Assembly: GCA_005116965.1 (NCBI GenBank) | Contig: SWDG01000027.1 | Coordinates: 631,273 to 680,598 of the forward strand | Origin: Nitrospira sp. | Lineage (GTDB): Bacteria; Nitrospirota; Nitrospiria; Nitrospirales; Nitrospiraceae | Direction: 5' to 3' | DNA length: 49,326 nt | Part shown: positions 40,451 to 46,039 of the stretch, in pieces | Layout: each line of letters begins with the position of its first letter | Position numbering within the stretch: the stretch's first letter is position 1 | Notes under the pieces: model-generated | Database searches by the model: none | The model's input: the letters and a program-made list of their open reading frames with translations, nothing else | What the model was told of the DNA's origin: nothing | Made by a program: the position numbers and the translations under genes

Positions 40451-41694
40451 GCCGCCGTCGCTACGAACTTGCGGCCTGGGAGATCTTCGAAGTCGGCAAG
40501 CCTTGGCGGGATGCCGACGCGGATGTCGCAGAAGCGATCGACTTCCTTCGCTACTATGCAGACGAGATGGACCGTCTGGCCAGACCAGTACGATTAGGCA
40601 ACCGTCCGGGAGAGCTCAACCAGCGCACCTATGCGCCGCGCGGTGTGACCGTCGTCATTGCACCATGGAACTTTCCACTCGCCATCCCCGCCGGAATGGT
40701 GTCTGCGGCACTTGTGACCGGCAATCCAGTTCTGTTCAAACCATCGGACCGCTCGCCCGGTTTAGGAACTCTGCTCACTGACATCTTCATCGGGGCCGGT
40801 GTACCGGCTGGATGCTTGACCTGCCTCCCAGGTGGGCCGGAAGTCGGCCAAGCACTCATCGCACATTCCCAAGTCGCAACGATCGTGTTTACTGGATCGA
40901 AGACCGTGGGACTCCACATCTTGGCCGAGGCAGCACGCGTGGGCCCAGGACAGCCAATGGTCAAGCGGGTGATTGCTGAGATGGGCGGGAAGAATGCCAT
41001 GATCATCGATGAAACGGCGGATCTCGACGAAGCGATTGCCGGCGTCGTCGCATCGTTCTCCGGTTACGCGGGGCAGAAATGCTCGGCTTGCTCCCGAGTC
41101 ATCGTCCATCGCACCATCTACGACTCTTTTGTTTCCCGCCTGCGTGAGGCCGTGCTGAGTTTGGACATCGGTCATCCCTCGAGACCCGGTACCAGAGTGG
41201 GGCCTGTGATCGACGCACGAGCCCAAGCGACCATCCAACGCTACATTTCACTTGGTCTCGAAGAAGGCCAGCTCCTCGTGCAACGAACCGTGGATCAGCC
41301 CGGATATTTTGTCGGGCCAACGGTGTTTGTCGATATCCAACCCCATCACCGTGTAGCCCAGGAGGAAATCTTTGGACCAGTGTTGTCGGTCATGAAGGCT
41401 GATAGTTTTGCCGATGCGATCCGCTTGGCCAACGAAACCGAGTATGCGTTGACCGGAGGGGTCTATGCCAGGAGTCCGGCCAATCTTGCAATGGCCCGCG
41501 AGCACTTCGATGTAGGAAATCTGTACGTAAACCGACCGATCACCGGTGCCCTTGTCTCTCGTCAACCATTCGGTGGGCACCGCTTCTCAGGGGTAGGCGC
41601 AAAAACCGGGGGGGAAGACTACCTTGCTCAGTTCATGATCACCCGCGTGATCAGCGAAAATACTCTCCGTCGGGGATTCGAATCAATTCAGTGA
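40447..41694 (+). CDS. putA: P5C dehydrogenase (ALDH) half of the broken PutA-like enzyme
   Basis: A 415-residue aldehyde dehydrogenase lacking its first 80-100 residues. Present are APWNFPLAIPAGMVSAALVTGN, FTGSKTVGLHI, the catalytic Glu in VIAEMGGKNAMII and the catalytic Cys in YAGQKCSACSRVIV, and the C-terminal PFGGHRFSGVGAKTGG. In-frame family sequence (ARSEILRQAALEMSRRR) starts upstream at about 40411, preceded by TAA at 40408. ATG 40447 is the best remaining start, with only a poor ribosome binding site. A P5C dehydrogenase without its N-terminal strands is unlikely to fold well. Confidence 0.75.
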   Translation: MSRRRYELAAWEIFEVGKPWRDADADVAEAIDFLRYYADEMDRLARPVRLGNRPGELNQRTYAPRGVTVVIAPWNFPLAIPAGMVSAALVTGNPVLFKPSDRSPGLGTLLTDIFIGAGVPAGCLTCLPGGPEVGQALIAHSQVATIVFTGSKTVGLHILAEAARVGPGQPMVKRVIAEMGGKNAMIIDETADLDEAIAGVVASFSGYAGQKCSACSRVIVHRTIYDSFVSRLREAVLSLDIGHPSRPGTRVGPVIDARAQATIQRYISLGLEEGQLLVQRTVDQPGYFVGPTVFVDIQPHHRVAQEEIFGPVLSVMKADSFADAIRLANETEYALTGGVYARSPANLAMAREHFDVGNLYVNRPITGALVSRQPFGGHRFSGVGAKTGGEDYLAQFMITRVISENTLRRGFESIQ

Positions 41695-42462
41695 GGCCTT
41701 CAGAGGCTTGATGTCGTGTTCTTCAAGTTCTTCCGTGATTTCCGTCACGACGCCTCGGTCCTCCTTGACCGCAGATAATTCTTGACGCTCCACATACTTC
41801 ACCAATCCGATCCCTTTGGCAAACCAGGCCGTCATCACATCGATACCGGAAACGGTCCGACGGCTCCCGGACAAGTGGATCTTCATGTTCATCCGCGCTT
41901 CCACCTTCACCGCATCCGGAAAGGTCCCTGCCGGAACCGTGACGGTTTCGCGGCCCATCACCTTACTCCATCCCTGCGTATCGACCTTTTCATCTGTTCC
42001 GTCTCGATCCATATCTGTCCCGAAGTCGATGCCCGTACGATCAAACTGTTGGAACGACGACGGGACTGTTAAGGGAAATCGGAAAATCTGGTAGGGAGTG
42101 ATCTGTTTCTCTAAGGGCGTTCCAGGTTCAGACCCGTAATACACAATCCCGACCCGATCCCGTCGATAGTAACTGTCCGACGGACCATGATTCCCAGGAT
42201 TCGTGTCATGGAACACAGTCACAGTGACGCCTTTGATGGCCTTGGTTTCCGTGACAGTCGAGACATTCGTAAAAAACTTCAGTTCGATCGTCTGGAGCGG
42301 CCCTTCGTTGATGTGGCCACGATAGGTCCAGCGACTTCCAATCGTATCAGGGAAATACTCGTCCGACTGTGTCACCGTGAGAGGCTCTTCCGCCCCGCAC
42401 ACCCCAGACCAGGCCACTAGACCCAACAGTAGGCAGGCTCCCACACTCAAGACCGATCGCAT
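41683..42462 (-). CDS. Secreted protein of unknown function
   Basis: A 259-residue protein from ATG 42462, which has GGAG five bases upstream (the frame is open to 42480). The signal peptide covers residues 1-24 (ending GVCGAEE). The mature part is beta-rich: YFPDTIGSRWTYRGHI, TVTVFHDTNPG, VTVPAGTFPDAVKVEARM and WFAKGIGLVKYVERQE. This layout, with VPAGTF and a final GxGLVKY, is a pattern often seen in secreted proteins of unknown role in environmental bacteria. Its 3' end overlaps the P5CDH gene by 12 bp in convergent orientation. Confidence 0.65.
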   Translation of the reverse strand: MRSVLSVGACLLLGLVAWSGVCGAEEPLTVTQSDEYFPDTIGSRWTYRGHINEGPLQTIELKFFTNVSTVTETKAIKGVTVTVFHDTNPGNHGPSDSYYRRDRVGIVYYGSEPGTPLEKQITPYQIFRFPLTVPSSFQQFDRTGIDFGTDMDRDGTDEKVDTQGWSKVMGRETVTVPAGTFPDAVKVEARMNMKIHLSGSRRTVSGIDVMTAWFAKGIGLVKYVERQELSAVKEDRGVVTEITEELEEHDIKPLKASLN

Positions 42463-42480
42463 AGTCACTCCAGGTTTCAC

Positions 42481-42834: not shown

Positions 42835-43233
42835 TCATCCCTTCACTGCTGCCTCAATATCTGTTCGTGAAAAATCATGGCCCTTGAACAGTAGGGCCGC
42901 ATCCATGGCCTTTGCCAATGCGTAGGAGAAGCAGTCCCCGAAGTTCAGATTCGCCGCATGTCTGCCTTTGCCAAATTTTCTAAAAGCTCCCCGCGCGATG
43001 TTCGCCTGCTCGACATCCACCGGCACGATCTCTATTCCTGCTTTCAGGACAAACAAATCAAAATCCCTCAATCCGTCATGTCCCATTCTGCCTTCCATCA
43101 CCATGGAAACCTCGACGAAACTGACTGCCGACATCAGACACCGTTTCGCTTCTTCAATGACCTCATTGAACGTCCGCCGTTCCGCCTCATCCCGCAAAAT
43201 TGCCACCACGGCAGACGTATCAATCACAATCAC
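42835..43233 (-). CDS. vapC: VapC toxin, PIN-domain ribonuclease
   Basis: A 132-residue PIN domain. Acidic metal-binding residues are visible in MIVIDTSAVVAIL (Asp 5), in FVEVSMVMEGR (Glu), in NFGDCFSYALAKA (Asp) and in the late GHDFSRTD. VapC toxins cut tRNA or rRNA using Mg2+. It starts at GTG 43233, overlapping the vapB stop by 4 bp, so antitoxin and toxin are translated in step with antitoxin first. Confidence 0.9.
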   Translation of the reverse strand: MIVIDTSAVVAILRDEAERRTFNEVIEEAKRCLMSAVSFVEVSMVMEGRMGHDGLRDFDLFVLKAGIEIVPVDVEQANIARGAFRKFGKGRHAANLNFGDCFSYALAKAMDAALLFKGHDFSRTDIEAAVKG

Positions 43234-43484
43234 GCGGGCATCCCGTTTTCATCGTACCCGAGAATTTCGTCGTCGGTACGCCTATCGTGCAAAGGCAGGG
43301 AGGCGCAGTGTCGCGCAATCTCATCCAGCTCATCGGCCAGCCGCTTCCGCCTGCGCCGTCGCTTCAACTGGTCAAGACGTTCCTTCAACGCCGTGGTCAC
43401 GGCCTCGGTCTTGGTTTCCCCGGTCAGCGCCACGATGGCCTGAGCCAGCTTTTCCGTTTCCGTATTTCGAATGTTCAGAGCCAT
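43230..43484 (-). CDS. vapB: VapB antitoxin, Rv0623/PSK family
   Basis: An 84-residue protein; ATG 43484 fits the usual start MALNIRNTETEKLAQAIV. The short conserved RHH-like region ETKTEAVTTALKERLDQL is followed by a strongly basic helix KRRRRRKRL and an acidic C-terminal tail that would block VapC. The predicted promoter lies about 40 bp upstream (43522-43550). Confidence 0.87.
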   Translation of the reverse strand: MALNIRNTETEKLAQAIVALTGETKTEAVTTALKERLDQLKRRRRRKRLADELDEIARHCASLPLHDRRTDDEILGYDENGMPA

Positions 43485-43521
43485 ACGTTCACCATTACTA
43501 CACATTTAACAACACAGCTAC

Positions 43522-43607: not shown

Positions 43608-43781
43608 TTAGAAAGACGCCGGTGCTGGTAGCTGAATGAGGCCCGCCCACGACTCGATCCGATCTCCCAACACAAACCGATGAGAACGGGGAAATTTTCC
43701 CACATGATTGATGAGCCAAAGCAGCACATCGTAGGCCTTCGTGACGGCGGTTGGGAGGGTTCCTGTGGCTTCGTCGGTCAT
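43608..43781 (-). pseudogene. avd: Truncated avd, accessory gene of a diversity-generating retroelement
   Basis: A 57-codon ORF from ATG 43781, preceded by GGAGG five bases upstream, to TAA 43608. Residues 13-43 include TKAYDVLLWLINHVGKFPRS followed by HRFVLGDRIE. This is the N-terminal helix-turn region of Avd/four-helix-bundle proteins that assist DGR reverse transcriptases. After RIE (near 43653) similarity stops and the frame ends 14 codons later, so about half of the expected 110-130 residues are gone. It directly follows a gene with a DGR-type variable region, the normal place for avd. Fold: helices 1-2 only, hence probably inactive. Confidence 0.75.
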
Positions 43782-43869
43782 GCTGACCTCCGATGAGGAT
43801 TCGATGCTTCACCGCAAGAAACAAGAAACGAAGACTCAGAGAAAAGGAAACAGGGTCAAAGCAAAAAGG

Positions 43870-45771
43870 TTAGTTCGGACGGTCCTGGGCACATCGGAAC
43901 CCAATATTGCCGTTCCAATACGTCGGTGAGTTCCTGAGCCGGAGTGCAGATCGCACGGAGGCCGGTACATTGTCCCAGGACCCACCACGGAGCACACGAT
44001 ACTGGCCGCTCGAGGGCCCTTTCGGATTCCGCGCGGGACTTGCACTGTAATAGTTCTCGTCATACCAGTCCGCCGTCCACTCCCTCACGTTCCCGCTGAT
44101 GTCATACAGTCCCCAAGGATTGGTCTCATAGGACCCAACCGGTGCTGTGCGCACCGCGCCGTCGTTATAGCCCGACATAATCACGCTCAACAGATGCTTG
44201 GCTGACTCGTCGGCGATATTTTCAACCAGCCTGGTCCCTGGATTCCCCTGCCCCCACCAGTATGGCGTCGTGGTGCCCGCGCGTGTGGCATATTCAAACT
44301 CCGCCTCCGTGGGAAGCCGCTTCCCCGCCCATCGACAATAGGCCTGCGCATCACCCCATGATACCGACACGACAGGATGGTCCGCCCGACCAGAATCAAA
44401 GACGGTTGCGCCTGCTTCCGGCTTCTGCCAATTGGCCCCCTTGGTTTCTTCCCAGCCTTTGCCCTCCACGAAGGCCCACGCGCTGCCTTCCTGCTCTGCC
44501 GTCGTCCGGTGGCTGGTTTGCTGCACGAACTGCTGGAATAGCCTGTTTGTCACCTCGTACTTGTCCAAGTAGAACGCGTCCAGCTGAACCCTGTGCTGAG
44601 GGAGTTCTCCTTTGAACCATCCTTCGCAAGTCTGCTGGTCTTTCTTGTACTCTTTGACGCAGGTTTGGATTGCACGGTCCACGTCGTCCTTCGTACTGCC
44701 CATCTGGAAATTCCCAGCGGGTATCAGCACCATCGGCGCACCGTCTTTGCCGGTGATAGTCTTTTCCACCTCGGCTACAGGTCGAGGTTTGGTTACCACG
44801 GCCTCCCCAGTGTTCGTGGCCTTCTTCACAGTTCGTTTCTCTTGAGTTGTCGCCGCAGATGGTTGTGTGATCGGTGCTGGCGCAGGAGGCGGTGTGCTCA
44901 CCTCAGGCCGAGTAGTCGGCGGATGTACGGTTGATTGGTATGGCACCACCGCTCTTGGCTCAGGCGAAGGGCTTTGCGAAAAGATCAGAAAATAGACCAG
45001 CGCTCCGATTGCCGCAAGGATGCCAAGCCCAATGGAGAGGTATGGGAAAGACTCGGTGGACGGAGCCGGACCTGTCGCTTCACTCGGACGGTCCTCGCTG
45101 GACCGCACCGATTCCTGATCGTCTCCCGAAACGTCCACCACCTCCGTGGACGAGGCAGATTCCACGGAAGAGTCCTGGCCAACGTCGCCGGCCATAGTGG
45201 AAGACGGTTTTCGTTTTGATTTTGGTTTTGGCTTCGGTTTCTGTCGCTCAGGTTCCGGGTCCACCTCGGTGGCGCTCTTCGATAGCGACTCTTCGGCTTC
45301 CGGCGTCGGGCTGGTTGGCGCAGGTAGCGGCGCCAGGGTCTGGATCACGGGAGATGGTTGAACCGCAACGCTCGACGGAACACCGATGACCCCGGCTAGA
45401 TCCTCGAGAAATTGATCAAAACCCGCATGCTCTTGGCCCGGTTGCCAATCCATCAAGTGCGCGGCTTGCAGATGTTCGAACTCCAGCGGAATCTCGACTT
45501 CGTCAAGCAGCATCACGGGGAATAAGATGTTTCGCCGCAAGCCGCTCCGCGATTCATTCTTGACCCAGGTGCTTTTGACCGAGGTGTTAGTCCACACCAC
45601 CACTACGGACCTCGCTGTTTTCAGCGCCTCGTGAATGACCTCGTCAAACGACTTGCCTGCGGGGATACGCCGATCCCACCAGACCGACCACCCCTTCCCT
45701 TCCAACGCGCGCGCCAGAGCCTGGACGCGGCCCTTATCCTCACTGGCGTAACTGATGAAGATGTCACTCAT
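43870..45771 (-). CDS. TIR-transmembrane-FGE protein with DGR-type variable C-terminus
   Basis: A 633-residue protein. Residues 1-130 are a TIR domain (DIFISYASEDKGRVQALARA, WDRRIPAGKSFDEVIHEAL, SVKSTWVKNE with Glu 73 at the NADase position). Residues 131-243 form a Pro/Ser/Lys-rich linker with KPKPKPKSKRKP, 246-265 a membrane helix, and 266-340 a second Pro-rich linker. Residues 341-628 are a formylglycine-generating-enzyme/C-type lectin fold (MVLIPAGNFQMGS, KRLPTEAEFEYATRAG, GLYDISGNVREWTADW, RVLRGGSWD, NIGFRC). The FGE fold is used here for binding rather than sulfatase activation, since no sulfatase is near. The predicted form is an intracellular TIR enzyme coupled through the membrane to a variable sensor. 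Confidence 0.85.
   Translation of the reverse strand: MSDIFISYASEDKGRVQALARALEGKGWSVWWDRRIPAGKSFDEVIHEALKTARSVVVVWTNTSVKSTWVKNESRSGLRRNILFPVMLLDEVEIPLEFEHLQAAHLMDWQPGQEHAGFDQFLEDLAGVIGVPSSVAVQPSPVIQTLAPLPAPTSPTPEAEESLSKSATEVDPEPERQKPKPKPKSKRKPSSTMAGDVGQDSSVESASSTEVVDVSGDDQESVRSSEDRPSEATGPAPSTESFPYLSIGLGILAAIGALVYFLIFSQSPSPEPRAVVPYQSTVHPPTTRPEVSTPPPAPAPITQPSAATTQEKRTVKKATNTGEAVVTKPRPVAEVEKTITGKDGAPMVLIPAGNFQMGSTKDDVDRAIQTCVKEYKKDQQTCEGWFKGELPQHRVQLDAFYLDKYEVTNRLFQQFVQQTSHRTTAEQEGSAWAFVEGKGWEETKGANWQKPEAGATVFDSGRADHPVVSVSWGDAQAYCRWAGKRLPTEAEFEYATRAGTTTPYWWGQGNPGTRLVENIADESAKHLLSVIMSGYNDGAVRTAPVGSYETNPWGLYDISGNVREWTADWYDENYYSASPARNPKGPSSGQYRVLRGGSWDNVPASVRSALRLRNSPTYWNGNIGFRCAQDRPN
43891..43998 (-). 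other. Putative DGR variable region (VR) in the FGE domain
   Basis: Codons 592-627 cover RVLRGGSW to NIGFRC, the exact segment that DGRs mutate in FGE-type targets. The fixed frame residues (RVLRGGSW, VRSA, NIGFR) are kept. The positions between are enriched in NNC codons: GAC 600, GCC 604, TCC 605, CTC 610, CTC 612, AAC 614, AAC 620, GGC 621. That is what adenine-directed mutation of AAC codons produces. No template repeat was found in the window. Confidence 0.65.
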
Positions 45772-45849
45772 GCGGTTGGCCTAATCTCGAATCCCGGCAT
45801 TGCTCCCATCTGCAGGCCATGGCATCCCGTCATATCTCTCGACTGCTCT

Positions 45850-45878
45850 GTTCATGGTTCGACAAGCTCACCACGAAC
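45850..45878. repeat. 29-bp REP-like inverted repeat
   Basis: GTTCATGGT and ACCACGAAC pair with one mismatch around TCGACAAGCTC. This short palindrome is of a type scattered in many environmental genomes. It lies in the 306-bp gap upstream of both the TIR-FGE gene and mazEF; nothing else was recognised in that gap except the mazEF operator. Confidence 0.6.
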
Positions 45879-46039
45879 GTATTTCGTTGGAGACCACAAC
45901 TAAGAATCAAGGTTCACCTGTGGCCGAGGAGTCTAGCGTACGTAGTTCAACCTGTCTAGACGCTGGATATGGTGCAGATGGCACTCTGTGACCTATCATC
46001 ATTCTTCCAAAACATGACGTGCAGATCAAAGCGATTTGG

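Follow-up and report, generated by a model that had tools for sequence, protein, structure and literature searches.

A TIR-FGE target gene followed by a truncated avd in Nitrospira: probable relic of a decayed DGR

In DGRs of the BPP-1 type, an FGE/CLec target gene with a variable repeat (VR) at its 3' end is accompanied by avd and RT, and the VR and TR differ specifically at adenines. According to the portion of the BPP-1 work compared here, at most 35 bp after the VR are required in the target (PMC3240598). Targets that have lost such partners are described in portions of three other reports: several Treponema denticola isolates have VR genes without RT or TR (PMC4891356); cyanobacterial remote variable proteins, e.g. 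all3226, keep remnant TR-VR homology with no nearby RT, and the authors suggest that the diversification parts were removed (PMC7517822); and Thiohalocapsa PB-PSB1 has duplicated DGR loci whose redundant components are degraded beside MITE-like short repeats (PMC10907252). Orphan targets and degraded DGRs are thus already known. Relative to this partial set of literature, we add a well-resolved case and a graded series across Nitrospira.

We analysed a 49,326-nt stretch (the window) of contig C12 of a Nitrospira genome of 3.73 Mb; the features of the locus are collected in Table 1. The locus resembles a BPP-1-type DGR in its 3' VR within a CLec/FGE target, in the Avd homologue behind it and in its adenine-specific VR/TR differences (with a TR taken from a relative), and the complete form exists in relatives. 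It is unlike BPP-1 in that avd stops short after codon 44, RT and TR are absent, and the Nitrospira order is target-avd-RT-TR. As in T. denticola, the target has outlived the DGR core, and as with all3226, a VR gene with TR homology stands without a nearby RT. In contrast, the Treponema report describes no avd stubs in the portion compared, whereas in Nitrospira a stub shows where the break lies, and a relative has this site complete; all3226 belongs to a different lineage, and the corresponding portion of that report mentions no avd fragment, whereas the window has an avd stub. Some incomplete loci of PB-PSB1 are described, in the portion compared, as diversified in trans, whereas the assembly of the window's genome contains no matching TR.

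Table 1. Features of the locus (positions within the window).
Feature	Position	Strand	Evidence or remark
DUF3108-like gene	41683..42480	minus	Syntenic anchor; the intact avd-RT-TR of G054 adjoins it
PIN-domain toxin gene, VapC-like	42835..43233	minus	Pfam E=6.3e-20
Antitoxin gene, PSK_trans_fac/VapB-like	43230..43505	minus	Pfam E=1.4e-27; directly follows the avd remnant
57-codon ORF	43608..43781	minus	44 codons from the avd 5' end, then 13 unrelated ones
Break point, end of avd homology	43649..43650	none	Next 149 nt unlike any DGR body tested
Genuine avd remnant, codons 1-44 (nt 1-132)	43650..43781	minus	Identity to intact G016 avd
Spacer, target stop codon to avd start, with GGAGG ribosome-binding site	43782..43869	minus	Aligned with G016
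Conserved pyrimidine-rich tract directly 3' of the VR, spanning the stop codon; possible target-site element	43837..43881	minus	
DGR target gene, 633 aa	43870..45771	minus	Pfam: TIR_2 (residues 4-121, E=1.8e-22) and FGE-sulfatase/CLec (residues 346-628, E=2.5e-66)
VR, 111 nt, 3' end of the target gene	43882..43992	minus	Adenine-site mismatches to the G016 TR

The preliminary description had read a 57-codon ORF behind the VR-bearing gene as an avd fragment with a good ribosome-binding site. The ORF does lie behind that gene and on the same minus strand; its ATG is at 43781, its stop codon ends at 43608, its translation is MTDEATGTLPTAVTKAYDVLLWLINHVGKFPRSHRFVLGDRIESWAGLIQLPAPASF, and GGAGG followed by a 5-nt spacing precedes the ATG. 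An HMM search against Avd profiles, the check suggested in that description, matched residues 13-44 to the Avd-specific NCBIfam profile NF033474 (E=7.8e-7, profile positions 4-35 of 104), with a score of 29.4 bits against a cut-off of 80, as low as expected of a fragment. Pfam bAvd gave only E=0.099. A 42-position profile of the Avd N-terminus, built from Nitrospira Avds with the window's own fragment among them, matched the stub at E=2.2e-27 in a search of the window's genome and had no second match there at E<=0.001. Over codons 1-44, the stub is identical to the intact avd of the relative G016 at 41/44 residues and 115/132 nt. Judged by sequence, codons 1-44 encode the N-terminus of a true Avd, and the reading as an avd fragment was borne out.

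Beyond nt 132, identity to the G016 avd drops sharply to chance level (0/13 residues, 12/42 nt). Hence, we assign 43781-43650 to avd, and the last 13 codons of the ORF are read-through into unrelated DNA. The break proposed earlier is real, but it falls at 43650/43649, just after RIES, and not near 43653 after RIE. With 44 codons kept of an Avd of ~117 residues, the ORF does not encode a complete four-helix Avd (~104 profile positions). Over the 149 nt past the break we found no similarity to the avd, RT and TR sequences tested, which rules out a displaced piece of any of these. Using phmmer to look for a closely related solved structure, we obtained only chance-like matches for the Nitrospira Avd.

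Complete Nitrospira DGRs have the order target(VR)-avd-RT-TR, contrary to the order target-VR-avd-TR-RT that had been supposed, and they come in two types. In type A, Avd contains TKAYDVLLWLINHVGKFPRSHRF and the TR contains NNEPDNVRSANRNRNTPTNRNDNIGFRCAQD; in type B, the corresponding sequences are VPQAVQSCHELLLWLIPQLDKFPRSRRF and NNKPENLRASNRNRNNADNRNNNIGFRLAQS. The RTs of the two types are ~50% identical. The DGR remains in the window are of type A. We compared the VR with the TR of G016, because searches of the window's genome had yielded none. Thirteen of 14 mismatches fell at TR adenines (binomial p=1.4e-6), and 77 of the 78 non-adenine positions were identical, leaving one non-adenine mismatch. 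G016's own VR differs from its own TR at 12 positions, all of them adenines. From the 13/14 pattern it follows that the VR was written by a type-A DGR: the window's target was diversified by adenine-specific mutation. Upstream of the TIR-FGE gene, at 45848-45885, lies a REP-like repeat of a kind common beside DGR breakpoints in the genus.

The preliminary description had offered, as an alternative to deletion, an RT acting from another locus, and had proposed a genome-wide search for a DGR RT. Such an RT is indeed present (C6:824233-825078, IGNLTSQ motif), but it is the only one, it is of type B, and it is not cognate to the type-A remains. There is no DGR RT at the window's locus and no type-A RT in the assembled genome, and querying the assembly with the VR and TR returned the VR itself and short FGE matches, with no type-A TR. 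The site that holds the type-A DGR in G016 lacks it in the window's genome. A type-A DGR elsewhere is thus ruled out for the assembly, G016's DGR site included, and the proposal of a distant RT found no support. Three gaps of 100 N interrupt the type-B DGR on C6 (L047, 7896-7995, 9134-9233 and 10077-10176); one is within the target gene, one separates this gene from the RT, and one sits at the RT's 3' end, the expected sites of VR, avd and TR. Given the N gaps in the assembly, these three among them, a type-A TR or RT could still be hidden.

To compare the same site in relatives, we anchored it on the adjacent DUF3108-like gene. In G054 (C10), a complete avd, RT and TR stand directly before this gene; because this contig starts immediately ahead of avd, any target gene would fall outside it. 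In G017, an FGE VR and an avd stub ending at ~nt 111 are followed by the DUF3108 gene, without the toxin-antitoxin pair. The TIR-FGE target of G031 is followed by a REP-like repeat and then a VapBC-like pair, G060 shows just the spacer and a VapBC-like pair, and G055 retains remains of target and spacer; the VapB-like antitoxin gene of G031 and G060 is at the same site as that of the window by synteny. In other genomes the site is empty, with the flanks close together (G016, G078, G013, G064, G065, G066, G006, G033, G035 and G009). These differing remains indicate that the site does hold DGR genes, as the preliminary description had expected of related genomes, and that the losses differ between lineages. 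Together with the full avd-RT-TR of G054, the different truncations in other relatives support its suggestion that a deletion removed the remainder of avd, TR and RT. Between the window and G017, the target and avd remnant are 77% identical and the flanks 92.5%; since the remnant diverges more than the flanks, the same-site copies are perhaps not orthologous in any simple sense. The site is empty in all three of the closest relatives (G016, G078 and G013), which requires several losses or repeated arrival.

Avd stubs are found behind targets in many of 79 genomes, and most of the stub-bearing genomes have no DGR RT. The tails behind targets are graded in length: none, spacer only, and about 30, 45, 111, 120-141, 156-161 and 186-210 nt of avd. 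The graded tails of type-A targets, found with a TR query, rule out a fixed end point or a conserved mini-avd near codons 40-47. Among stubs sharing one truncation, synonymous:nonsynonymous codon changes were 13:6, 6:5 and 8:9, versus 229:41 among intact avds, and one such stub carries an internal stop. On these relaxed counts we rejected selection on the stub at the protein level, and with the graded lengths they point to a decaying relic and not a conserved mini-gene. The window's stub differs from the G016 avd by 2, 1 and 13 substitutions at codon positions 1, 2 and 3; from this pattern of a working gene we take the truncation to be recent on the scale of the divergence from G016.

We hold it probable, at roughly 85%, that the locus is a decayed DGR relic in which the TIR-FGE target is frozen and a stub of avd remains. 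A type-A DGR, comprising the TIR-FGE target with its VR, avd, RT and TR, would have lost the 3' part of avd, the RT and the TR, leaving the 5' third of avd. While intact, the DGR rewrote the VR from its TR by adenine-specific mutation, as the VR/TR pattern shows; after the loss, the last version of the VR would stay fixed, because neither a matching TR nor a matching RT is present in the assembly. As the same-site comparison suggests, the deletion would have occurred where the DGR stood, at the VapBC-like pair or beside it. Although start codon and ribosome-binding site are retained, the greater part of the four-helix Avd is missing from the stub, which should therefore not work with any RT; most likely the stub has no function of its own and is drifting to decay.

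We favour deletion in place over arrival in truncated form, a reading that overlaps with that of a decayed relic and was scored separately. In this alternative, which we consider unlikely, target and stub would have come as a relocated cassette, e.g. through recombination between short dispersed repeats. Relocation also happens in this genus: in G006 (C29; L050, 6483-10080), an orphan TIR-FGE target with an avd stub forms an insertion of ~3.6 kb in a site that is continuous in G016, G015 and the window's genome (G000), with one end at the avd break and the REP-like GGCTCAGCRCGARCGGAT repeat at both boundaries. That cassette is an insertion at a neighbouring site, which rules out simple in-place deletion of the G016 DGR. 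REP-like repeats also adjoin several other avd breaks in the genus, and the empty site in close relatives fits an arrival. Against this stand the complete avd-RT-TR that G054 carries at this position, the stub of another length in G017, and the window's own avd break, which no REP-like repeat adjoins.

That a DGR at another locus of this genome still diversifies the target in trans is very unlikely. The C6 RT, the single non-adenine mismatch of the VR and the intact 45-nt tract behind it would all suit such action, but that RT is of the other type, VR and TR queries found no type-A TR in the assembly, and the type-B TRs of relatives encode other fixed residues and could not have written the window's VR. 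Least probable of all is that selection keeps the avd 5' stub, be it for a short peptide or for a DNA element that accessory targets require. In favour of this, stubs recur after target genes in many genomes, frequently with an end close to codons 40-47, and most have an open frame; the gradation from no avd to 186-210 nt, the relaxed coding constraint, the internal stop and the short requirement of BPP-1, no more than 35 bp past the VR in the portion of that work compared (PMC3240598), argue against it.

The locus is a clear instance of a target that has survived the retroelement by which it was diversified, at a site that is complete in one relative, variously cut in others and empty in many. 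The genus-wide series bears on how often DGRs are lost, on whether a TIR-FGE sensor is kept once its binding face is frozen, and on which DNA after the VR is retained. Two further observations concern orphan loci. G055, a nearly complete genome without a type-A or type-B DGR RT, has three orphan type-B targets or stubs (L054, L055 and L056), and two of its stubs, at different loci, share one junction from avd to a REP-like tail. Outside Nitrospira, partial Avd-like stretches occur behind FGE genes in a Prado141 MAG (L204, 1144-1239) and a KSB1 MAG (L189, 1680-1928), with no RT match within either locus.

The tract after the VR is the most open by-product of the analysis. In nine type-A targets, mean pairwise identity is 90% over ~45 nt, versus 62% in the following 45 nt. 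The tract sits where BPP-1 needs its hairpin, according to the portion of that work compared (PMC3240598), whereas the Nitrospira tract is hairpin-free: type-A spacers contain no stem of at least 5 bp after the VR, which rules out a BPP-1-like hairpin. We tentatively raise the possibility, itself doubtful, that the tract is a target-recognition site of a new kind, which would allow dispersed targets to be rewritten in trans or, once a DGR has come back, captured again. It is conserved in type-A targets of several Nitrospira, is recognisable in type B, and is kept even in orphan targets stripped of everything further downstream.
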